Positions 3,306-19,359 of a stretch of DNA of 21,011 bases are shown here, piece by piece. Positions within the stretch are counted from its first letter, which is position 1, and each line of letters begins with the position of its first letter. The translations under genes were made by a program, and so were the position numbers. This DNA comes from a virus, in IMG/VR virus record IMGVR_UViG_3300009074_000044, positions 1-21,011 of that record; one strand, 5' to 3'. Below the pieces are notes generated by a model, which saw nothing but the letters and a program-made list of their open reading frames with translations, did not search any database and was not told the DNA's origin.

Positions 3306-6029
3306 ATGAGTAATTGGACGCCACCAATGCTCACCGATCAGCAAATCAACGAACGGTTTGAAGCGCAAACAGAAGCTGAAAATCAATCAATGAGAGATTG
3401 GATTAACACGACCAACGACGAGAATTTCAATACAACAGAAGATGATCTTCGCCAAAATCCACAGTGGATTCTCGCCAGTAGGGTTTTATACAACCAAAAC
3501 AACGGCAAGAAGTTCTCTGGAACTGATCAAGAAGCAGCCGACTATGGCCTCGATCAAATGGGTGCATTCAATTACTCATTCTTTAATATGGATGCGCCGT
3601 GGGCTGAAGAAGATACAGTCGGTATGGTTGGCTACCTTTCAAGGATTCAAGAGTTTGATGATCGCGGCAAGCTTGCCTTCTTGCTGTTGATGAACACCTA
3701 CGACGAGAAAGATGTCACTTGGGAAGGTGTCAAAAGAGGTTTTTCAAATGTTTTCCAAGATCCTACGACTTATGGCGGTATTACTACGCTCGCCAGTCTC
3801 GGCGCGAAATTTTCGGGACGGTCAGCTGTCAAAAGCGGAGTGAAGGCTTGGCTTGAACACGCAGCGCATGGCACTTTTTCCCGAACAGGCATGGCGATTG
3901 GCGCCTTTGAGGGTGGAAGCTATACCGCAGCCGATCAAGTTTATCGCGAAAGAATAGACGCAGAGCTTGGGGATCGAGAGGCTTTTAGCGATCTATCAGG
4001 GTGGCTATTGGAATCTGCACCTACAATCGTTTTGGGAACAACTATCGGCGCAGCTATCCCCGCAGCGGGAATGGCAGTCAATCGGCTTCGACCTCGACCC
4101 GATATTCCGGTTCCTGATCGACCTGATCTTATTGTTGAGGAAGTAAACAAAAACGGCAAACTTCAACGAAATGTTCGAGTTGATGAAGCTGCATTTGATG
4201 TTGACGCAGAAAATTTTAACTTTCCTGATCTAGAACCAACTCTTGCTGACAATCACAGACTTATTGCACAAGACAGTCAGGCCCGAAATAAGAAAGGCTT
4301 TGGCGAGCAAAGCGAATTCTTCAATCCAACATTTGGGCATGAAGGGCGCCCGGTCTATAAGGCGATTCGAACTCAATCGCACAACCGGATTATTAACAAG
4401 GCTATCGAAAAATCTGGCGACAGCATTCCCGCTGAAGGTGAGAAAAAGGTCGCTGTCTTTTTAGGCGGCGGCAGCGGTGCCGGCAAAACAACTGGCTTTA
4501 AATCGGGAATTGAAAGCGGCGCAATCCCAGATCGCCAATATGTGAACATCAACCCAGACGATATAAAAGAACAGCTTTCAGATTACAAGACAATCAAGCG
4601 CGAAGGAGACTATCGGGCAGCTATGCAAACCCACGAAGAGTCTTCAGACGTTGGGGATCTTTTGCTTGAGCGCGCTGTAAATGACGGTCGAAACGTTTTG
4701 ATTGACAAAACAATGGCAAATCCTGAGAAGAATTTGGCATTAATGGAGTTGTTGAGGTCAAAAGGCTACGAGATTCAGTTTATGGGGGTCTCAGTTGACG
4801 CAGGAACAGCTGCAATGCGTAACCTAGGGCGATTCTATAACTCAGGTCGCATCCCTTTCCTACAGGCAATTGGGAGGACTCATAAGGGATTTAACGCAAA
4901 TACCCGAGCCTATCTTGAAGCTGCAGATCAAGGCGTCATTATGGATAATTCCGGCGGGTCTTTAGTGATTGCAGCGCGAAAAGGTGAAGACGGCTCAGTC
5001 GAAGTATGGGATCCGATGGTCTATAATATGATCTTAGAAAGAGGTAACTTAAATGAAGAAGCAAAAACAATCCGAGAACTTCGTGGATCCTCGGTCACGA
5101 ATGATAACCCCGGAGATTATGGCGAAAGCCCGCAAGGAAGTGGAAGCGGAGGAGCGCAAACGGAAGGGGCCGCCAGTGGTCTTTCTCCCGAACGACTAAG
5201 AGAGCAGCGAGCTGCTGACCTTGGTTTCAGTGATGAAACCTTCTTTCACGGATCGACTCGGGATTTCACTGAATTTAGCGATAAATTTGGCAATCCCGAC
5301 AATCACTACGGTCTCGGTCATTACTTTACAACGAGCCTCGAAGACGCATCCGACAACTACAGCGGCAGTGGCCCTGATTTAAACATCAGGCTCGAGACTG
5401 TCGCGGAAAGTGCCTTCCCCGATCTTGAAGGTAAAGACGGAATCGATGCAGCTAGAAAGCTGCTTGGCGTCGAAAATGACGGTGTTGTTTACCCAGTTAA
5501 GCTTCGCACAGATAAGGTTGTGCGCGTTGGCGATGATGATGCTTACACTCTTGATGGCGAAAGAGAAACTTTCTGGGAATTAGATCCTTCTGATCCAGAT
5601 GAAGAAATCTTTGACCCATCCGGGGAGTTTATGGATGTTCTTGAAGCAACCATCGAAGCTGCTGACCAGTGGGGCGTTCCAGATACTAATGAGCTGCAGG
5701 GAAAACTTTTAGAAGCAGCTATGGATCAGGAAGGCATGGGCGCTTCTGAGTTTGAAAAAATCTTGCGAGACCATATGGCAAACCTTGGTGCAGACGCATC
5801 CCCCGGAACAGTTGTTTCTCAGGTTTACCATGATCTTGGATATGACGCTATAGATATGGACGCCGGCGTGTTTAAAAACATGGACGGTGTAGAAGGGCAG
5901 CGACACTTCATAATTTTTGATCCAACCAGAATAAGATCTATCCACGCCGAGTTTGATAAAAACAAAATCGACAGCGCAAACATTTTATCGAGTGTAGATA
6001 ATGGCAATCGAAAACGCAGATATTCTTAA
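3306..6029 (+). CDS. Polyvalent virion protein with zeta-toxin-like kinase and ADP-ribosyltransferase (ART-PolyVal-like) domains
   Basis: A 907-aa protein starting directly after the previous stop, with GAGG about 8 nt upstream. N-terminal about 1-330: acidic helical region with a hydrophobic stretch at about 230-255, probably the virion-association part. About 335-560: a zeta-toxin-like P-loop kinase with Walker A GGSGAGKTT (388-396), NPDD (416-419), the H443-E444-E445 'heess' element, a β-strand ending in D467 ('VLIDKT') and lid-type arginines R505, R509 and R515. About 595-640: Gly/Ser-rich linker. About 642-895: an ADP-ribosyltransferase-like domain with FFHGST (H648), GLGHYF (Y673), and a C-terminal GYDAID ... 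FIIFDPTRIRS block. Zeta kinases phosphorylate UDP-N-acetylglucosamine or other small substrates; ARTs transfer ADP-ribose from NAD to targets. The ejection-block location suggests it enters the cell with the DNA, as T4 Alt does. No antitoxin gene is adjacent. Domain calls are strong by motif; activity and target are unknown. Confidence 0.85.
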   Translation: MSNWTPPMLTDQQINERFEAQTEAENQSMRDWINTTNDENFNTTEDDLRQNPQWILASRVLYNQNNGKKFSGTDQEAADYGLDQMGAFNYSFFNMDAPWAEEDTVGMVGYLSRIQEFDDRGKLAFLLLMNTYDEKDVTWEGVKRGFSNVFQDPTTYGGITTLASLGAKFSGRSAVKSGVKAWLEHAAHGTFSRTGMAIGAFEGGSYTAADQVYRERIDAELGDREAFSDLSGWLLESAPTIVLGTTIGAAIPAAGMAVNRLRPRPDIPVPDRPDLIVEEVNKNGKLQRNVRVDEAAFDVDAENFNFPDLEPTLADNHRLIAQDSQARNKKGFGEQSEFFNPTFGHEGRPVYKAIRTQSHNRIINKAIEKSGDSIPAEGEKKVAVFLGGGSGAGKTTGFKSGIESGAIPDRQYVNINPDDIKEQLSDYKTIKREGDYRAAMQTHEESSDVGDLLLERAVNDGRNVLIDKTMANPEKNLALMELLRSKGYEIQFMGVSVDAGTAAMRNLGRFYNSGRIPFLQAIGRTHKGFNANTRAYLEAADQGVIMDNSGGSLVIAARKGEDGSVEVWDPMVYNMILERGNLNEEAKTIRELRGSSVTNDNPGDYGESPQGSGSGGAQTEGAASGLSPERLREQRAADLGFSDETFFHGSTRDFTEFSDKFGNPDNHYGLGHYFTTSLEDASDNYSGSGPDLNIRLETVAESAFPDLEGKDGIDAARKLLGVENDGVVYPVKLRTDKVVRVGDDDAYTLDGERETFWELDPSDPDEEIFDPSGEFMDVLEATIEAADQWGVPDTNELQGKLLEAAMDQEGMGASEFEKILRDHMANLGADASPGTVVSQVYHDLGYDAIDMDAGVFKNMDGVEGQRHFIIFDPTRIRSIHAEFDKNKIDSANILSSVDNGNRKRRYS

Positions 6030-9000
6030 TAAAGAAATCCCGCAAACCCCCACCGAAACCCCGGCACCCGCCGGGGTTTCTGCTTCTGGGGAGCTTGAAA
6101 TTGATTCTTGGATGGATCAACCCTTTGGAGATTCTGAAGAAGATCAAGTTTTAGTCGCCGGTCTGGGAAATGTAGCTCGCGCTATTGCGCGCCCGATCAC
6201 TACAGCCATTGGGATTGGCAAGGCAAATATGGGGGATGCGGTTCCCGAAAATCTCCGATTTAAAAATTTACCCAAAACCGAAGATGACTTTTTCATCAAG
6301 GTTGATGTTAATGAAGCGATAGACCGACCGATTCGAGTTGATGGTGAAAAGCTCGACACTCCAGAGCTACGCCAAGACAAGATTGACGAGCTTGACTCCC
6401 TTCTTAGCCAAGCGGATTACCAAGACTTTGATACAACGAAATCTTGGCAGCTAAACCCCCAGAACATAACTTCGGCTGAAGATTTTAATAAAGCTCAAAT
6501 GGCGATTGCAAAACGCTATCGCGTCGAGATAGATAAACAGCGGCGTGGAGTCGTGACCGAAGAAGAGCAGCTCAAGCTTGCTAGGGTTTTTTCCAACGAT
6601 CCTGAGTTTGCGAAAAAATTTATGACCACTGGGCCGGGAACCGCGTTATCTGCTGAAGAGCTTAAAGCTGCGCGTTTCCTTGTTTTAAAGTCTGCCGAAA
6701 ATCTAAAGGCTTCTGCGACTAATTTTAGACGCCAAGCAACCGGTGATGATTTACCAGTTGCTGAACTAGAATTTTTGCGGAACTGGAACATTCACAAAGA
6801 GTTGGTTGTGAAATGGATGGGCGCCAGAGCTGAAGCCGGTCGCTCACTTCGTGCAATCTCCGGGCAATCTATCGGAGATATGAAAGATCTATCGCAAGCG
6901 CATATCGATGAGCTGACCCGACATTATGGGAGCGCCGCTGATGTTGCGCGCCTTGCTGATCAAGTTATGGCAGCTCAAGGATTGATTGGCGTCAATAAGA
7001 CGGTTGCTGCCCAGAAGTCGGGCATAAGTAAATGGGGCGCGGCAATTGCCGAGAACATGACAGGATCAATTCTATCCGGCCTTTCTACTTTCGGCGTCAA
7101 TTTTTTTGGCAACGGTTTGATGATCGGTCGACACGCCACTCATCTTGCTGTCGCAGCTCGGTTAGGGCGTTGGACAATGGGAGATGCTGCTGTTGTCGAG
7201 AAGGGTGAAGCAATGGCTTATTTAATAGGTTCATTCGCATCTTTCAATCGAGCGCGCCAAGCTTTCGTCATTGCATTAAGAACCGGCGAGCCGTATGGCG
7301 GCACCGCGAAATTTGAAGGTGCAAAAGATAAAGCAATTTCTGCAACCTCTCTGGGCTACGACCCAAAGTCGGCTGCCGGCGCAGCGATCAACGTTTATGG
7401 TCATATCGCTCGCGCACCAATGGAGAGAATTCTCGGCCCGACAGATGCGCTATATAAAGTAACGAACGAAGGTGGTCACTGGGCGCAGCTCGCGTACCGG
7501 CAAGCTGCTAAAGACGCAAGAGCTGAAGGGTTGAGTGCTGCCGAGCAAGATGTCCGGTTGCAGCAGTATATGGCAAACCCGGATCAAGATACGTTGTTAA
7601 GGATGAAAGAATTTGGTGAATACCAGACTTTCACAAACCCCCTCGGTGAATGGGGTCGTTCAACTCAGAAAATGCTAAATCAGTTCACACTCGGAAGATT
7701 GTTAGTTCCGGTTTTTAGAACTCCTGCACAGATATTTAAAATTGGATTTCTTGAAGATACGCCGCTTGGGTTTCTTTCACAATCAATAAGAAAAGATTTA
7801 TATCCAGAGCCGGAAATCGGCAAAGCGCAATTGAGCAGTGAGCAGATGGAAAGAATGCAAATGGCTCAGTCTCGAATGACTGTTGGAACTATGACGGTCG
7901 CAACAATCGGAGTACTCGCAGCCAATGGATATGTAACAGGGTCGGGGCCGAAAGAATTTGGCGCTCGGGACGCAACGCGAGAGGTTGTACCTCCCCGCTC
8001 TTTTGTGGTGGAGCGTGATGAGTATGGGAATCCATCCAAATATATGTCTTTTGATCGGTTAGAGCCTTTCAGCTTGCAGATTGGATTGATGGCTGACTTT
8101 TATGAAATCTTACAAGCTTCACAACACATGGATTTGGATGAATCTCAGATGGAACAAATCATGGATGTTGGAGCTGCACTCACGTTAGGCGTCTATGAGA
8201 ACACGATCAACAAGACTTATATGCGGGGAATAAATGAAGCAATCAGCGCCACTCAAGATCCCGAACGATACCTAGAACGTTGGCAAGCTTCTTTCATTAA
8301 CGCGCAATTGCCGCTGTCTGGAATCCGGCGAGATATTCGCAAAATGATTGATCCGATGATGCGAACAACTGAAACACTGTTAGAGCGTTTAAAGAATCAG
8401 CTTCCCTATTTTTCAAAAGACCTTCCCGCCTTAGTAGGGATTCACGGTGAATATATTCCTTATGACCACCTCATGAATCTACCGCTAAAGACTAAAGAGG
8501 TTTCAGATGATCCAACCTTCCAAGAGTATAACCGTCTGTTTGAATCAACTCGGATTCCCCCGGTCACAAAAGGAACTGCAATTATTGGTGGGCATAAGTT
8601 AAATGCACAGCAGAAGCATGATTTCCAAATCATTTCAAGAAATGGAATAAAGCTCGAGCTTGATGATCAGAACAATGTTATCGGCGCTTCTTTACCGTCT
8701 TATGACCCAAACGCAAATTGGAAGGAGCGAATAAAGCCCAAAGGTAGCGGGGTGACCTTTGCAGGAGCTATTCAAAACTTAATGATCTCGGATCAGTACA
8801 ACTCACCAATGGTGACGGACTATGCGCGAGTTGAGATGATCAAGAAGATCCAAAACGGATTTGATCGAGCAGCGCGAGAGTTTTTGAAAGCAGAAAACCC
8901 AGAAATTCTAGATGCTGTTCTTTTGATTCAACAAAACGAAGCTAGAAGAATGATGGGAAGAGACGCAGCAGATCAAGCTTTTGAAGATGCCGGTGTCGAA

Positions 9001-15602: not shown

Positions 15603-15604
15603 AA

Positions 15605-15628
15605 GTTGTGACCAAAGTTGTGACCAAA
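15605..15628 (+). repeat. Arm-type repeat pair, left (2 x GTTGTGACCAAA)
   Basis: Copies at 15605-15616 and 15617-15628, exactly tandem. The same pair recurs at 15822-15845. Location on both sides of the tRNA-derived core suggests binding sites for the N-terminal domain of the integrase. Confidence 0.78.
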
Positions 15629-15640
15629 ATAGAACAACCC

Positions 15641-15670
15641 CAAGCAGCTCCAAGCAGCTCTAAGCAGTTG
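15641..15670 (+). repeat. Three 10-bp tandem repeats in the attP left arm
   Basis: CAAGCAGCTC at 15641 and 15651, and TAAGCAGTTG at 15661. The 10-bp period places each copy on the same face of the helix, as in excisionase or cooperative regulator sites. Which protein binds is unknown; the excisionase-like gene at 18920-19093 is a candidate. Confidence 0.6.
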
Positions 15671-15721
15671 CAACTCCTAGACAGTCGCAAAAAACACTGT
15701 AATAATAGACTCCGGCAGGAA

Positions 15722-15767
15722 CTTGCCAAGGTTGGGGTCGCGAGTTCGAATCTCGTTTCCCGCTCCA
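15722..15767 (+). other. attP core: 3' part of tRNA-Gly(GCC)
   Basis: The sequence runs from the anticodon loop TTGCCAA (anticodon GCC at 15725-15727) through the variable region, T arm GCGAG-TTCGAAT-CTCGT (740-755 region), acceptor strand TTCCCGC, discriminator T and CCA (15765-15767). It matches the 3' half of bacterial tRNA-Gly(GCC). The upstream bases do not pair properly with the anticodon stem and no D arm or 5' acceptor is present, so this is not a tRNA gene. On integration it would restore the 3' end of the host tRNA. Confidence 0.88.
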
Positions 15768-15770
15768 TAA

Positions 15771-15783
15771 AATCAACGACTTA
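15771..15783 (+). promoter_or_regulatory. IHF consensus site in attP
   Basis: AATCAACGACTTA matches WATCAANNNNTTR at every defined position. It lies 4 bp after the tRNA-derived core and 38 bp before the right arm repeats, where a bend would bring arm-bound integrase to the core. Confidence 0.65.
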
Positions 15784-15821
15784 CGTCTGATCTGTATTAG
15801 TGGTTTCTGATATAGACCCCA

Positions 15822-15845
15822 GTTGTGACCAAAGTTGTGACCAAA
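15822..15845 (+). repeat. Arm-type repeat pair, right (2 x GTTGTGACCAAA)
   Basis: Exact copies at 15822-15833 and 15834-15845, same orientation and tandem arrangement as the left pair. Confidence 0.78.
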
Positions 15846-15900: not shown

Positions 15901-17064
15901 CTAAGCTCTTCGAGCGGTAAGACTGACCACGTTACTGACAGCAGCTTCAGTTCTGGTTCTGGTTTGTTCCATCTTATCCATCTCGACCCATTCGTAGTCC
16001 TCGGGAACGTCGAGATACCGGAGAGTGGTTTCAAGCTTTGAATGCCCGGCCCATTTCATTGCCAGATGGATGGCAACGCCGTTGTTGACGCAATCGCTGA
16101 TGAAGGTGTGCCTCAGTCCGTGAAGCGTTCCGCTCGATTTGATTCCGGCTGCTGACTTATCCACTTTAAAGACTTTCGACCAACGATCCTCCCGCCAATC
16201 AGGTAAAAGACGATCACCGGGGAGGTTAAGGGTTAGGATCTCAAAATAGGCCGCTAGAGCGTCTGAATTGAGCGGTATCGAACGAGCTTTGCCGGTCTTG
16301 GTATCCATCCCTTCTTCGAGATCGTGATCCACTAGCACCCTTCTTTTATGGTTAGAGCCGATTATGTCTTGCTTTCGAAGGTTGGAAAGCTCTTTGCGGC
16401 GAAGCCCGGTGTTAGCGATGAATTTCCAAAAAGCAGCGTGGGCGGGGTTTACTTTATAAAGCTTGTCTAACTCGGCGGCGGTGAAGATCTTGATCTTTTT
16501 CTTGACGGTCTTTGAATTGGATGCGATCACCAGTTCGCCGACCGGTGAGGTCTGACAAAGATTCCATCGGTTGCCTTCCTTCTTGCCACCGGTACGAGCT
16601 GCCCGGTAAAGCGAGGCTTTGATGTCCTTCCATTCGTCTTTCACGGTTTCTGGTGAGACCACCTTTAGGCGGTCGACTTGCCAAGCGTTGAACGCGGTAT
16701 TCCAAAGATCAATCGTCGCAACATCATCTGCAATGGTTAGATTGCCGAAGTAGGGAAGCGCCGTTTTGCAGTGCCGTGTAAAGTGTTCGTGACCGGCTGC
16801 GCTGTAAACTGTTGCGCGCCATGTCAGAAGCTGCGGGAGAAATTCAGAATAGGTCATCACACGTTTCGGTCGAGCTGCCGGCTCGATAACAGCAATGCCG
16901 GATTTGGCAAGCTGCTCTTTTGCTTCCCACTCTTTGCAAACTTCTTCAGCTTGTTTCTTGGTCATGCGTGAAGCTGACCCCAAATATTTTACTCTAGGCA
17001 GAAGGTTGGTTTTGAGCCACCAGTACCCTTTGCCTTTACGCTCGTCAATATAAACACTTGCCAT
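15901..17064 (-). CDS. int: Tyrosine recombinase / phage integrase
   Basis: A 387-aa protein with all the hallmarks of the family: an N-terminal arm-binding-like domain (about 1-60, with 'YWWLKTNLLPRVKYLGSAS'), a core-binding SAM-like domain (about 70-165), and a catalytic domain with R222 (TGLRRKEL), K256/K259 (TKTGKARSIPL), H315-x-x-R318 (HGLRHTF), H341 (WAGHS) and the nucleophile Y350 (TTLRYLD). It should recombine attP at 15722-15767 with a host tRNA-Gly gene. The ATG overlaps the stop of the upstream small gene (TAATG), with GGAGG 8-12 nt before it, so it is the last gene of a coupled operon, ending at a strong terminator. Expression is probably set by promoter P1 and its operator at 17785-17814. 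Full length and intact. Confidence 0.96.
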   Translation of the reverse strand: MASVYIDERKGKGYWWLKTNLLPRVKYLGSASRMTKKQAEEVCKEWEAKEQLAKSGIAVIEPAARPKRVMTYSEFLPQLLTWRATVYSAAGHEHFTRHCKTALPYFGNLTIADDVATIDLWNTAFNAWQVDRLKVVSPETVKDEWKDIKASLYRAARTGGKKEGNRWNLCQTSPVGELVIASNSKTVKKKIKIFTAAELDKLYKVNPAHAAFWKFIANTGLRRKELSNLRKQDIIGSNHKRRVLVDHDLEEGMDTKTGKARSIPLNSDALAAYFEILTLNLPGDRLLPDWREDRWSKVFKVDKSAAGIKSSGTLHGLRHTFISDCVNNGVAIHLAMKWAGHSKLETTLRYLDVPEDYEWVEMDKMEQTRTRTEAAVSNVVSLTARRA

Positions 17065-17285
17065 TAACTTGCCTCCGGTAATTGTCTCTCAAGCATTCTG
17101 TAGGCCAATACAAGTTCCGTGTAATGTTCCCACCTATCTAGGTCATCAGCATCAGCGCCGACTCCTGAGTCTTTCAAGAATTCAAGGCTTCGCTCTTGCA
17201 TCTTTATTGCGGATTCGAGAACCCACATTCCGGATTGAGCCGAATCAGCCTCAGTCACTCCCTGCTTTAATACTAAAGTTCTCAT
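17064..17285 (-). CDS. Small hypothetical protein upstream of the integrase
   Basis: Start chosen at ATG 17285, which shares a base with the previous stop (TAATG) and follows GGAGG; an upstream in-frame ATG at 17348 would overlap the preceding gene by 64 nt and lacks such a site. The 73-aa product is helical and charged ('VTEADSAQSGMWVLESAIKMQERSLEFL', 'DDLDRWEHYTELVLAYRMLERQLPEAS'). It has no membrane segment or DNA-binding motif that I recognise. Translationally coupled to int by the same GGAGGCAAGTTAATG junction that begins this gene. A regulator or cofactor of integration is possible only by position. Confidence 0.6.
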   Translation of the reverse strand: MRTLVLKQGVTEADSAQSGMWVLESAIKMQERSLEFLKDSGVGADADDLDRWEHYTELVLAYRMLERQLPEAS

Positions 17286-17470
17286 TAACTTGCCTCCATT
17301 GCTTCGAGCTTGAAAGACATTTCGAACATCCGGTCGACCGCGTCCCAAAGGATTAAGTGCAACTTATCGTTCGGGTTCTCCAAATAATTTTCGCGGTAGT
17401 CATCAATCGCTTCTTCGATCTCCGAAAGCGCCCGGAGATCAAGGTCTTTTTCGACGTTGCTTCTTTTCAT
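17285..17470 (-). CDS. Small acidic helical protein of unknown function
   Basis: A 61-aa protein with AGGAG 7-11 nt before ATG 17470 and an ATGA overlap with the upstream stop. It is predominantly helical and acidic ('LRALSEIEEAIDDYRENYLENP', 'LILWDAVDRMFEMSFKLEAMEAS'). No family recognised. Its last four codons and stop (GAG GCA AGT TAA) provide the Shine-Dalgarno and junction for the next gene. Member of the P1 operon with the integrase. Confidence 0.6.
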   Translation of the reverse strand: MKRSNVEKDLDLRALSEIEEAIDDYRENYLENPNDKLHLILWDAVDRMFEMSFKLEAMEAS

Positions 17471-17778
17471 TTTTTCTCCTCTTTTTTTAAGTTGATCGTG
17501 GTGGTTTCTAAGATGTCAATATCAATTAAGTGTCCGTCATTGTTGCCATAGTCTTCATAAAATCGGCGCTCTTTAACAATGTCGAGCTGTACCGCGTCAT
17601 CTTCTGAATCTATCCAAGGGCTGCCGTCATTTTCTTCAATAACTTTTTCAATAAGTTTTATCTGCTTTTTGACTTCGGATAATTTCTGATAAAAATCGAC
17701 CTCGATGATGTCGCCGTCTTTATTGATCCATTCAAACTTCCATTCGGTTGTTTGTGTTTTTTTGTTTTTCATTGCCAT
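17467..17778 (-). CDS. Hypothetical protein, first gene of the integrase operon
   Basis: A 103-aa protein if it starts at ATG 17778 (MAMKNKKTQTTEWKFEW); ATG 17772 is close by. A longer reading from 17817 would run through the promoter -35 and -10 elements and the operator, so it is rejected. The -10 box ends 7 nt before ATG 17778, so the transcript probably begins at or within a base or two of the start codon (leaderless). The product is charged: 'FEWINKDGDIIEVDFYQKLSEVKKQIKLIEKVIEEN', then an acidic middle and 'GHLIDIDILETTTINLKKEEKK'. No family recognised. Overlaps the next gene by ATGA. Confidence 0.6.
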   Translation of the reverse strand: MAMKNKKTQTTEWKFEWINKDGDIIEVDFYQKLSEVKKQIKLIEKVIEENDGSPWIDSEDDAVQLDIVKERRFYEDYGNNDGHLIDIDILETTTINLKKEEKK

Positions 17779-17784
17779 ATCTGC

Positions 17785-17814
17785 ATAATAGGGCATTGCC
17801 CTAGTTACCGTCAA
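17785..17814 (-). promoter_or_regulatory. Promoter P1 (integrase operon)
   Basis: Minus-strand -35 TTGACG (17814-17809), 18-bp spacer, -10 TATTAT (17790-17785). The spacer contains a palindromic operator. Closely resembles promoter P2 at 18866-18894, including the bases after the -10 (GCAG..ATGG). Confidence 0.75.
17789..17803. promoter_or_regulatory. Operator O1, perfect palindrome in P1
   Basis: TAGGGCA-T-TGCCCTA, 7-bp perfect arms around one base, covering the spacer and the edge of the -10. A bound protein would block RNA polymerase. The Cro-like HTH protein at 17844-18074 is the likely ligand. Confidence 0.72.
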
Positions 17815-17828
17815 CAATTAATTGATAG

Positions 17829-17839
17829 TGGTCTGACCA
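17829..17839. promoter_or_regulatory. Palindrome TGGTC-T-GACCA upstream of P1
   Basis: A perfect 5-bp-arm palindrome 14 bp upstream of the -35 and 4 bp after the stop of the HTH regulator gene. The same element (TGGTC-A-GACCA) precedes P2 at the same relative place, so it is likely a second regulator or activator site. Confidence 0.6.
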
Positions 17840-17843
17840 AAAT

Positions 17844-18074
17844 TTAGATTTGTTTTTCTCCGAGCTTTATCTTGAGCAGCTCGAGATAGCCGGGTGGCAT
17901 GGTGCGGTGGGATGAGACATCGGGCGACTTGCGCCACGACTCCACGGTGCCGCGCTCGACGAGACACAGCTCGGCGATGGCCTGAGTAGTCAGGCCATGC
18001 TTCTTGATTAGACGCATCAGCGTCGAGCGAGATTTCGCGGTCATAGGCCGCAGTGTAACTTTGGACGCTGTCAT
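17844..18074 (-). CDS. Cro-like helix-turn-helix regulator
   Basis: A 76-aa protein with GGTGA 9-13 nt before ATG 18074. Residues 17-50 form a helix-turn-helix: 'LMRLIKKHGLTTQAIAELCLVERGTVESWRKSP', where LTTQAIAELCLVERGTVESW is the two-helix motif of Cro/CI-type proteins. The C-terminus 'MPPGYLELLKIKLGEKQ' matches the small phage Cro-like group ('.p..YLELLr.kLge'). It has no protease or dimerisation domain like CI, so it is a short repressor or Cro. It is the last gene of the P2 operon and lies directly before P1; both promoters carry the same GGGC-N3-GCCC operator, so autoregulation plus control of the integrase operon is the natural reading. Another frame over the same bases (17818-18096) has no HTH and is not a gene. 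Confidence 0.82.
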   Translation of the reverse strand: MTASKVTLRPMTAKSRSTLMRLIKKHGLTTQAIAELCLVERGTVESWRKSPDVSSHRTMPPGYLELLKIKLGEKQI

Positions 18075-18077
18075 TTT

Positions 18078-18326
18078 TCAATTCACCCATTTCCAACCCG
18101 GAGCCGGGGCAAGTCCATCAAGCTCGGTCGTATCCGAAATTGTGATCTTTTTGTAGTCAGAGAGTCGAACGTCACCGAGTTCGGTTTCGTATCCGTACAC
18201 CACCGCTTCAGCAAGATCCGGATCGTTATGATCGTAATCCGTAACGTAGACCTCCCAGAAATTTTTGAGGATGATGTGTCGCACCACGTTCACGGTGCCA
18301 ATTCCATTTTCACTTTCCATTTTCAT
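18078..18326 (-). CDS. Conserved small phage protein of unknown function
   Basis: An 82-aa protein whose ATG (18326) immediately follows the previous TAA; an ATG two codons later is also possible. Pattern: 'HIILKNFWEVYVTDYDHNDPDLAEAVVYGYETELGDVRLSDY' and C-terminal 'LDGLAPAPGWKWVN'. The sequence 'W.VYV....', 'A.V.G.E.ELG.V.L.e' and 'L.P.pGW.W' recalls a small early phage protein found near MSTR-type genes such as its neighbour. It appears soluble, acidic and β-rich. No function known. Part of the P2 operon with the HTH regulator 3 nt downstream. Confidence 0.65.
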   Translation of the reverse strand: MKMESENGIGTVNVVRHIILKNFWEVYVTDYDHNDPDLAEAVVYGYETELGDVRLSDYKKITISDTTELDGLAPAPGWKWVN

Positions 18327-18830
18327 TTAAGCTGCCTCGTTGGTTTCAATTTTCATCTTTTCTGCAATGCCGTCTTCGGCGAACTCTTTAGGGCGATGTT
18401 TATTTTCGGCCCTGATGATTGAGTTCATTTCTTCAATCGCATCGTTGACCGACCCGGCAAACTGTTCAGGACTTTGAAGATCGAGGTTAGTAAGGTTCGT
18501 CCAATCCTTTCGAAGCCCGGCGACTCGCGACCGGTTACGGTCGTTCCATCGAATGTTTACTTCAAGAACTTTGTTGTCACCGGTGAAACTACTGCCAAGA
18601 TGAATTTCATAAAGGTATTCGATGTCGCCGTGAATCCCACTGGTGATCTCGTAGTTTTCATCACTCGCGAAACTAACAAGAAGTTCATTCTTTGTTATCA
18701 TATTTAGCTGCGCGTCGATAAGTTTTTGAGCAATGTCTTTGCCGGTCTCGGCAAGATAGCCGTCCCAATGACGGTAGAAAATTACCCGGGTTTTGCCATC
18801 TAGAATTACGATGTTTGATCTAGTACTCAT
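18327..18830 (-). CDS. Conserved early phage protein, MSTRSNI... family
   Basis: A 167-aa protein with GAGGAA 7-12 nt before ATG 18830. It has the hallmark of a widespread phage family: 'MSTRSNIVILDG', 'IFYRHWDGYLAETGKDIAQKL', 'EITSGIHGDIEYLYEI'. Family knowledge: many tailed phages of marine and enteric hosts encode it among early genes, and no biochemical role is established. The C-terminal 60 residues are helical and charged. It is the first full gene after promoter P2, with a 10-codon upstream reading frame overlapping its ATG. Intact, with no frameshift. Confidence 0.75.
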   Translation of the reverse strand: MSTRSNIVILDGKTRVIFYRHWDGYLAETGKDIAQKLIDAQLNMITKNELLVSFASDENYEITSGIHGDIEYLYEIHLGSSFTGDNKVLEVNIRWNDRNRSRVAGLRKDWTNLTNLDLQSPEQFAGSVNDAIEEMNSIIRAENKHRPKEFAEDGIAEKMKIETNEAA

Positions 18831-18859
18831 TCTGTTCCTCGGTTGTTGTTTACTGCCAT
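18827..18859 (-). CDS. Possible leaderless 10-aa leader peptide
   Basis: ATG 18859 lies 7 nt after the P2 -10 box, where transcription should begin. The frame reads MAVNNNRGTE and its TGA overlaps the next ATG (ATGA). It contains the Shine-Dalgarno of that gene, so translation could be coupled. The equivalent position after P1 starts a real gene with ATGGCA as well. No independent coding evidence; could be chance. Confidence 0.35.
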   Translation of the reverse strand: MAVNNNRGTE

Positions 18860-18865
18860 GACTGC

Positions 18866-18894
18866 AGTATGGGGCTTTGCCCTAGATAGGTCAA
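18866..18894 (-). promoter_or_regulatory. Promoter P2 (regulator operon)
   Basis: Minus-strand -35 TTGACC (18894-18889), 17-bp spacer, -10 CATACT (18871-18866). Similar to P1 in -35, CTAGGGCAA.GCCC spacer and the GCAG..ATGG that follows. Expected to drive the genes from 18830 to 17844. Confidence 0.68.
18872..18884. promoter_or_regulatory. Operator O2 in P2, with extra half-site
   Basis: GGGC-TTT-GCCC followed by TA, matching O1 in eight arm bases and the TA flank, and placed in the same position of the spacer. A further half-site TGCCCTA (18895-18901) touches the -35 upstream, giving one and a half sites here. Confidence 0.62.
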
Positions 18895-18908
18895 TGCCCT
18901 AGCACAAC

Positions 18909-18919: not shown

Positions 18920-19093
18920 TCAAGCAGAAAGGTGCTTTTCTATAGCGGAAACTAGGTCTGTTTTGCGGTACAGCTTTTTCCCCATGAAAGGGAAAGTCGG
19001 GATGCCAAGCTTTCGGCGGTTCCTGATGAAGTGGGTGTAAGACATCCGGCAATACTCCGCAGCTTCTTTGCCGGTCAGGTAGTCATTACTCAT
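18920..19093 (-). CDS. Excisionase/AlpA-like HTH protein
   Basis: A 57-aa protein when started at ATG 19093, which overlaps the previous stop (ATGA); a start at 19135 would lie well inside the upstream gene. It matches the MerR-like DNA-binding fold of the excisionase/HTH_17 group: 'YLTGKEAAEYCRMSYTHFIRNRRKLGIPTFPFMGKKLYRKTDLVSAIEKH' (helix-turn-helix, then a wing with G-K-x-x-Y-R-K, then a closing helix 'DLVSAIEKHL'). Family role: recombination directionality (Xis) or transcription control. With an integrase and 10-bp repeats in attP, an excisionase is plausible. It could instead regulate the TGGTCWGACCA boxes, one of which abuts its stop. Confidence 0.78.
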   Translation of the reverse strand: MSNDYLTGKEAAEYCRMSYTHFIRNRRKLGIPTFPFMGKKLYRKTDLVSAIEKHLSA

Positions 19094-19359
19094 ACAACAT
19101 AAACCGGCGTCACAAAGCGATTGGTTACCCGGCACTTGCGCTTCTGAGCTTCTTTAACCTTGCCGGATTTTTTCAATCCATTCACGCGACCTGACACTGC
19201 GTTGATTTCAAGACCGGTCAAACGGCTGATCTCTTTAAGGGTCATGTCTTCAGCAAACATCGACTCGCCGAGACACGCGAGGATTTGATCTTCTTGTTTG
19301 AGCGTAACGCCGGCTTGTTTGATTTGGCGGTACACCACGGTGCTTGTATTTCTTGGCAT
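19090..19359 (-). CDS. Winged-helix DNA-binding protein
   Basis: Start chosen at ATG 19359, with AGGAG 10 nt upstream; ATG 19392 lies inside the nuclease gene. The 89-aa product has a winged helix: 'QEDQILACLGESMFAEDMTLKEISRLTGLEINAVSGRVNGLKKSGKVKEAQKRKC', where 'LKEISRLTGLEINAVSGRVNGLKKSGKV' is the recognition helix and turn, and 'RVTNRFVTPVYVV' gives the wing strands. The type is common in early regions of alphaproteobacterial phages ('IT.R..eL...G....KR.CRVTGR...'). It may regulate early genes or replication. Overlaps the Xis-like gene by ATGA. Confidence 0.75.
   Translation of the reverse strand: MPRNTSTVVYRQIKQAGVTLKQEDQILACLGESMFAEDMTLKEISRLTGLEINAVSGRVNGLKKSGKVKEAQKRKCRVTNRFVTPVYVV

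Follow-up and report, generated by a model that had tools for sequence, protein, structure and literature searches.

HTH76, a small helix-turn-helix protein of marine temperate podovirus-like phages, as a likely autorepressor of integrase and accessory operons through palindromic operators

In phage lambda, CII exerts coordinate control over the repressor and integrase promoters, with a direct repeat flanking the -35 box. The Cox protein of phage P2 and the Apl protein of phage 186 are dual excisionase-repressors, and the lambda-type CI and Cro proteins are helix-turn-helix (HTH) regulators that act on operators within promoters. In acr-aca operons, aca genes lie after the acr genes; the core promoter always has one inverted repeat, to which several families add a second, and Aca autorepression has been proposed to occur through blocking of RNA polymerase (PMC9410906). 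We analyzed a 76-aa HTH protein, here called HTH76, of an uncultured phage. Like the Aca1-Aca10 autorepressors, it is a small HTH protein whose gene closes a short phage operon, and one or two inverted repeats lie in the core promoter of that operon, both in this phage (O2a and O2b, below) and in most of its relatives. Unlike Aca, HTH76 is linked to an integrase and has candidate sites at three promoters of one genome. Because no anti-CRISPR gene was identified in the HTH76 operon and HTH76 matches Aca proteins weakly in sequence, which are two further differences, we do not claim Aca membership. Its candidate operators lie within promoters, as with CI and Cro; unlike these, HTH76 is co-directional with its proposed target operons and has no divergent partner, since the two promoters (P1 and P2) and HTH76 are all on the minus strand. 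We consider it likely that HTH76 autorepresses the integrase and accessory operons via these palindromes, and that lysogeny is decided by a separate HTH_3/Cro-like pair.

The DNA analyzed, hereafter the window, is an IMG/VR record of 21,011 bases, one contig fragment of a phage that is marine and temperate. Tail and internal virion genes of podovirus-like type occupy the plus strand of the window, and the early genes are on the minus strand. In minus-strand order, these are a Cas4-like exonuclease, an 89-aa winged-HTH-like protein, a 57-aa HTH_17 protein, promoter P2, a 167-aa protein, an 82-aa protein, and HTH76, followed by promoter P1, a 103-aa protein, 61-aa and ~72-aa frames, a tyrosine integrase, and a probable attP.

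20527-19370, minus strand: Cas4-like exonuclease
19090..19359, minus strand: 89-aa winged-HTH-like protein, a conserved upstream neighbour (phrog_1123, E 5e-12)
18920..19093, minus strand: 57-aa HTH_17 protein, candidate excisionase, AlpA/Xis-like (HTH_17, E 4e-4, below cut-off)
18327..18830, minus strand: 167-aa protein, gene 1 (cargo) of the P2 operon; open reading frame (phrog_1987, function unknown)
18078..18326, minus strand: 82-aa protein, gene 2 (cargo) of the P2 operon; 53% identity to its positional counterpart in L007
17844..18074, minus strand: HTH76, 76-aa HTH protein, proposed autoregulating repressor (phrog_7950 "transcriptional repressor", E 2e-7)
17467..17778, minus strand: 103-aa protein, gene 1 of the P1 operon; its ATG coincides with the predicted transcription start
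17285..17470, minus strand: 61-aa protein of the P1 operon; open reading frame without a family match
17064..17282, minus strand: ~72-aa reading frame of the P1 operon; open reading frame without a family match
15901..17064, minus strand: tyrosine integrase of 387 aa, closing the P1 operon (PF00589, E 3.3e-17; phrog_1, E 3.1e-38)

A frame related to the 89-aa protein occupies the equivalent place in the relative L015. An Rfam search of the window returned nothing. The first-pass annotation had placed a Cro-like HTH gene last in the P2 operon, just before P1. The position stands, and the similarity of HTH76 is to the HTH family, not specifically to Cro. Pfam gave weak HTH hits and NCBIfam nothing above cut-off. 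A sequence search of the PDB gave generic HTH hits only. Aca3 (9vt3) was matched weakly by profile (E 0.0076). AlphaFold predicted helices at residues 13-26, 30-38, 41-49, and 63-71 with low confidence (mean pLDDT 66), and a Foldseek search with this model gave no significant match. Among named phages, no relative was found by DNA or by the HTH76 protein. A Cupriavidus plasmid carries a weak match (39% identity) in an unannotated frame. Bacterial genome scans, the first of which was empty, yielded as their sole outcome an Azospirillum MAG locus, which was rejected because the protein is an ordinary HTH regulator.

A closely related contig, that of L005 and here called G003 (36,240 bp), encodes an HTH76 100% identical to that of the window and matches the window at 99.66% identity, ungapped, across all 21,011 bases. 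G003 has a 99-bp terminal direct repeat and was therefore taken as complete.

The two promoters of the window and the candidate operators within them are as follows.

17785..17814, minus strand: promoter P1 of the integrase operon, TTGACG-18-TATTAT (-35 at 17814-17809, -10 at 17790-17785)
17789..17803, minus strand: O1, perfect 15-bp palindrome TAGGGCAATGCCCTA (minus-strand reading), in the spacer/-10 of P1
18866..18894, minus strand: promoter P2 of the HTH76 operon, TTGACC-17-CATACT (-35 at 18894-18889, -10 at 18871-18866)
18870..18884, minus strand: O2a, candidate operator with 2 mismatches, in the spacer/-10 of P2, position equivalent to O1
18887..18901, minus strand: O2b, candidate operator with 1 mismatch, overlapping the P2 -35

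The first-pass annotation described a duplicated promoter-operator module, and the sequence agrees with it in most respects. P1 and P2 form a 46-nt repeat with 78% identity, both core promoters hold copies of TAGGGCAWTGCCCTA, TTGAC -35 boxes are common to the two, and GCAG..ATGG is present downstream of both. O1 is, as described, a perfect palindrome. The account of O2 as a near copy plus a half-site was correct for the near copy, which is O2a; the supposed half-site is a full 15-mer, O2b, and since it has one mismatch against two in O2a it is the better O2 site. The centres of O2a and O2b are 17 bp apart.

ATGG lies exactly 6 nt past the -10 at six promoters of the window, L007, L008, and L015 (17778 and 18859, minus strand, in the window; 4337 and 3756 in L007). 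Its A therefore falls at the predicted transcription start, so that AUG-first (leaderless) transcripts are possible, and the 103-aa gene of P1 may be among the genes with such a start. At P1, ATGG is in frame with this first gene; at the other promoters it opens mini-ORFs near the first gene (MAVNNNRGTE, MGSTRTTEA, and MVR[GE]WP).

Three sites with ≤3 mismatches to the palindrome were found in the window (0.29 expected), none of them outside P1 and P2. Extending the search to the rest of the genome and to relatives, as the first-pass annotation had proposed, gave four sites with ≤2 mismatches in G003 (0.01 expected), with no more at 3 mismatches, and the palindrome was also kept in the diverged relative L007. 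All four G003 sites are in promoter regions: one in P1, two in P2, and one in a third promoter, P0 (TTGACA-17-TACAGT), located with the terminase side on one flank and two small genes of the plus strand (69 aa and 94 aa) on the other.

G003 6276-6290: O0, fourth operator site, in P0

The exact 15-mer was present in 16 stretches of IMG/VR, and among these HTH76 is also encoded only in L025, L026, L028, and L033, which are known relatives; the bare palindrome elsewhere in IMG/VR was therefore taken as chance. The small 69-aa and 94-aa genes, located between the terminase and the early genes at G003 6327-6841 (L018 6327-6841), lie under an HTH76-type operator. A homologue of the 94-aa protein was not found in the named phages searched. 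Its counterpart in L070, a 98-aa protein with 77% identity (E 2e-54), is encoded within the HTH76 operon, and thus one cargo gene is found under an HTH76-type operator in two genomic places. This match is independent support for O0 as a candidate operator and for a predicted shared regulon. The operator marks its regulon, in that P0 was located via the palindrome and the P0 gene was then seen in the L070 HTH76 operon.

L007 encodes an HTH76 80-85% identical to that of the window and an integrase about 50% identical, and the layout is kept. Alignment of the two P1 regions showed TTTGGTCAGACCA, TAGGGCA-TGCCCTAT, and GATATGG unchanged. An O1 equivalent is kept at the matching place in P1, and O2a and O2b are both kept at P2. 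The palindrome is thus conserved, where its absence would have counted against the proposal of the first-pass annotation. By reading, the -10 starts 6 bp past the operator centre at both promoters of L007 and at P0, P1, and P2. For P1, P2, and L007 this common geometry is not fully independent evidence, as these promoters probably derive from each other by duplication. In L071 and L076 the -10 is in the same phase to the operator as in P0, P1, and P2.

More distant HTH76 homologues, with about 44-60% identity, are encoded by uncultured phages. Most of these distant relatives have the order HTH_17 gene, promoter, variable cargo, HTH76, integrase, and in L008, L014, L016, L070, and L071 the HTH76 stop abuts or overlaps the integrase start. 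The cargo between promoter and HTH76 differs among phages. L071 has none: directly after a promoter with two palindromes come HTH76 and the integrase. We scanned the loci automatically for tandem near-palindromes, retaining the best pair per locus and comparing it with 200 shuffles; the parameters had in essence been fixed on the initial loci. The locus-best pair was at the HTH76-operon promoter in L005, L008, L014, L015, L070, and L071. No shuffle reached the scan score in L008, L070, or L071 (0/200 each), and 8/200, 31/200, and 39/200 did so in L015, L014, and L005, the last two being unexceptional apart from location. In these three loci it is therefore the location that carries weight, together with the genome-wide count for L005. 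Five lineages were found later: two pass the pair scan (L070 and L071/L072), two have a single palindrome (L058 and L076), and L083/L084 (about 50% identity) is ambiguous, its best pair being off the promoter and only a TTGTACAAAGTACA over the -35 fitting. The single core-promoter palindromes of L016, L058, and L076 were seen by eye after the pair scan had failed.

Across lineages, the palindrome varies along with the recognition helix.

Window type: helix VERGTVESW, palindrome TAGGGCA
L008/L015: helix VSPVTVQHW, palindrome TTGTACA (TTGTACAW...)
L014: helix VQQTTVQKW, palindrome TTGCACA (TTGCACAW...)
L016/L058/L076: helices V[EK]LVTVQHW and VSLSTVQKW, palindrome TAG[TC]A-N5-T[AG]CTA
L070: helix VSHGTVRKW, palindrome ACCC...TTAGGGT, twice
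L071/L072: helix VTTGTVGKW, palindrome GGAACATTGTTCC, twice

The sites, the promoter geometry, their conservation, and the synteny are read directly from the DNA. Together with the conserved palindromes of L007 and the different palindromes found at the equivalent promoter in most distant relatives, they agree with the part of the first-pass annotation that assigned the module to control of both regulator and integrase: the operon of the HTH protein and that of the integrase are probably under the control of this one protein, via operators that the two have in common.

Two further features were seen near these promoters. A long leader with conserved blocks, CGGGGG...AGCCTGATACCGAGTGGGG...CTCACAAAACGCCG...GATAGCGACAAGCC...TTTGTCAGTATCAA, separates the HTH76-operon promoter from the first gene in L014 (2500-2640), L016 (1795-1960), and L070 (2870-2990), and also in L058, L076, and L083; it is possibly a structured RNA. 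In L083, a long AT-rich palindrome, AAACACTGTATATATAGTGTTT, lies at 2921, upstream of the HTH76 operon promoter.

The variable cargo between promoter and HTH76 brings in the reading of HTH76 as an Aca-like regulator that mainly damps an anti-defence cargo operon, with the integrase as a secondary target. The anatomy is that of acr-aca operons, in which the HTH gene comes last and the core promoter holds inverted repeats (PMC9410906), and the weak profile match to Aca3 and the cargo gene found in the L070 operon and behind P0/O0 in G003 point the same way. Against it, the cargo proteins have no known Acr or anti-defence match, although many Acrs are without recognizable homologues; L071 lacks any cargo, and the integrase is the most constant downstream partner. 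We regard this reading as rather unlikely, and prefer autorepression of both operons by HTH76.

The first-pass annotation proposed a minimal one-repressor lysogeny switch, unlike CI/Cro, in which HTH76 would be the sole lysogeny repressor, with P2 as the maintenance promoter and O1 and O2 as the switch. Operators at the promoters of HTH76 itself and of the integrase are consistent with such a role, as is the label of phrog_7950 as a transcriptional repressor. The proposal fails on the complete relative. In G003, ~5 kb upstream of P2 and outside the window, an HTH_3 (CI-like) protein (PF01381, E 1.8e-15; phrog_4, E 2e-16) is encoded opposite a Cro-like gene (P22_Cro, E 5.5e-5; phrog_8008, E 3e-16). 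Primase and helicase genes follow the Cro-like gene, and a Sak4 gene lies behind the CI-like gene. This second switch, which is directly visible in the sequence, has palindromes of its own, TAGGC..CCTA, located between the HTH_3 and Cro-like genes and before Sak4. None of the four HTH76 sites of G003 is at a replication or recombination promoter; all are at P0, P1, and P2. An HTH_3 protein above the family cut-off is encoded besides HTH76 in 6/8 records (G003, G001, G011, G006, G012, and G013), and in G012 and G013 it is within a divergent pair. Given the pair in G003 and the HTH_3 proteins of the relatives, HTH76 is most likely not the immunity repressor, and we judge the sole-repressor reading highly improbable. 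The HTH_3 protein is assumed to be the immunity repressor, which is probable from its homology and the divergent arrangement. A single contig fragment had thus suggested a one-repressor switch, and the complete relative reveals a second, conventional switch beyond the end of the window.

Downstream of the integrase gene is a probable attachment site.

15604..15844: probable attP, with AGTTGTGACCAA arm repeats at 15604-15627 and 15821-15844 and a tRNA 3'-end-like core near 15713-15768

Four AGTTGTGACCAA arm repeats (two pairs) flank the core and are also present in G003. A search for a complete tRNA found none. HTH76 resembles P2 Cox and 186 Apl as a small HTH protein tied to an integrase and to promoter control, and could be a recombination directionality factor of the Xis/Cox/Apl type that binds attP and represses the integrase promoter. 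Its gene adjoins int, and the VC1465 family (Xer activation factors) matches it weakly, below cut-off (E 0.0017). Unlike what is expected for Cox or Apl, the probable attP holds no operator-like sites, and a separate gene is the better excisionase candidate: the 57-aa HTH_17 (AlpA/Xis-like) gene just upstream of P2, present in the window and conserved in place in most relatives. The arms of L007 match the operator half-site over 7 bp, and those of other phages do not. A role of HTH76 as directionality factor is accordingly very doubtful, and control of the integrase at its promoter remains our preferred reading.

Two overlaps of the arm repeats were noted. In L007, arm-type repeats (TTGTAGGGCA) around the probable attP (5862-6090) have 7 bp in common with the L007 operator half-site. 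The arm repeats of the window (TTTGGTCACAAC) have TTTGGTCA in common with the TGGTCWGACCA element described below. Both overlaps are probably coincidence. The presence of TAGGGCA in the L007 arms suggested integrase arm sites as possible targets of HTH76; this was rejected, since the arms of the other phages inspected lack their half-sites.

P1 and P2 share a second element, TGGTCWGACCA, which the first reading had overlooked.

17829..17839: TGGTCWGACCA palindrome, 14 nt upstream of the P1 -35; identical 13-bp block at equal spacing in L007
18909..18919: TGGTCWGACCA palindrome, 14 nt upstream of the P2 -35; absent at L007 P2

It occurs twice in G003 and once in L007 (before P1). In L007 P1, the 14 nt separating the two palindromes are mostly changed, and both palindromes are kept. 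The element was not found at L007 P2, at P0, or in the more distant relatives checked. It was rejected as a terminator hairpin: a T-run is lacking, and the stem could reach 4 bp at most, around a 3-nt loop. The FadR-subfamily operator consensus is TKGT-N3-ACMA (PMC4494728), and TGGTCWGACCA fits this FadR/GntR consensus. No GntR gene was found in the seven phage records searched, and any GntR ligand would therefore have to be host-derived.

As with lambda CII, one short motif is found at a regulator promoter and an integrase promoter; unlike the CII site, TGGTCWGACCA is a palindrome at about -55 and is absent at L007 P2, and a CII-like protein was not identified. TGGTCWGACCA may be the main input, read by a host FadR/GntR-type regulator or by the 57-aa or 89-aa phage HTH protein, with HTH76 fine-tuning the response. 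The perfect palindrome, its equal 14-nt spacing at P1, P2, and L007 P1, the conserved block, and the fit to the FadR-subfamily consensus argue for such an input. Its patchy distribution argues against it, and for a palindrome this short, a fit to one or another regulator family may be fortuitous; we hold such an input to be quite unlikely. A broader view would combine several of these elements, with HTH76 as an undescribed integrase-linked Aca-like family of uncultured marine phages whose operators were retuned in each lineage with the recognition helix, whose dispersed regulon comprises anti-defence cargo and the integrase, and on which, in the clade of the window, a host FadR/GntR overlay acts at TGGTCWGACCA. 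In that full form it is a long shot.

Returning to autorepression of both operons by HTH76, the following sequence of events is proposed; in it we infer binding, repression, dimer state, and timing, as well as the roles of the HTH_17 and HTH_3 proteins. HTH76 would be a small, probably dimeric repressor. P2 would first yield cargo and HTH76, with HTH76 expressed last. HTH76 would then bind O2a, O2b, and O1, plus O0 in the complete relative, and with sites in the -35/-10 spacer and over the -35, RNA polymerase would be blocked at P2, P1, and P0. Synthesis of cargo and integrase, high in an early burst, would thereby fall to a low level, and the choice and maintenance of lysogeny would be left to the HTH_3 (CI-like)/Cro-like pair. 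HTH76 could in principle act as an activator instead. In related phages, a single promoter with palindromic operators would drive HTH76 and integrase together, with L071 as the minimal form. In the clade of the window, the integrase would have gained its own promoter and operator copy (P1/O1), probably by duplication of the P2 module.

If the FadR/GntR input at TGGTCWGACCA is true, it would couple integration to the carbon state of the host. The probable attP could identify the host through its attB. For a temperate podovirus group in which no named phage has a detectable HTH76 homologue, the locus provides a testable map of integrase control. The HTH76 family also supplies small HTH regulators in a natural series, paired with candidate operators, which is useful for decoding recognition-helix specificity.
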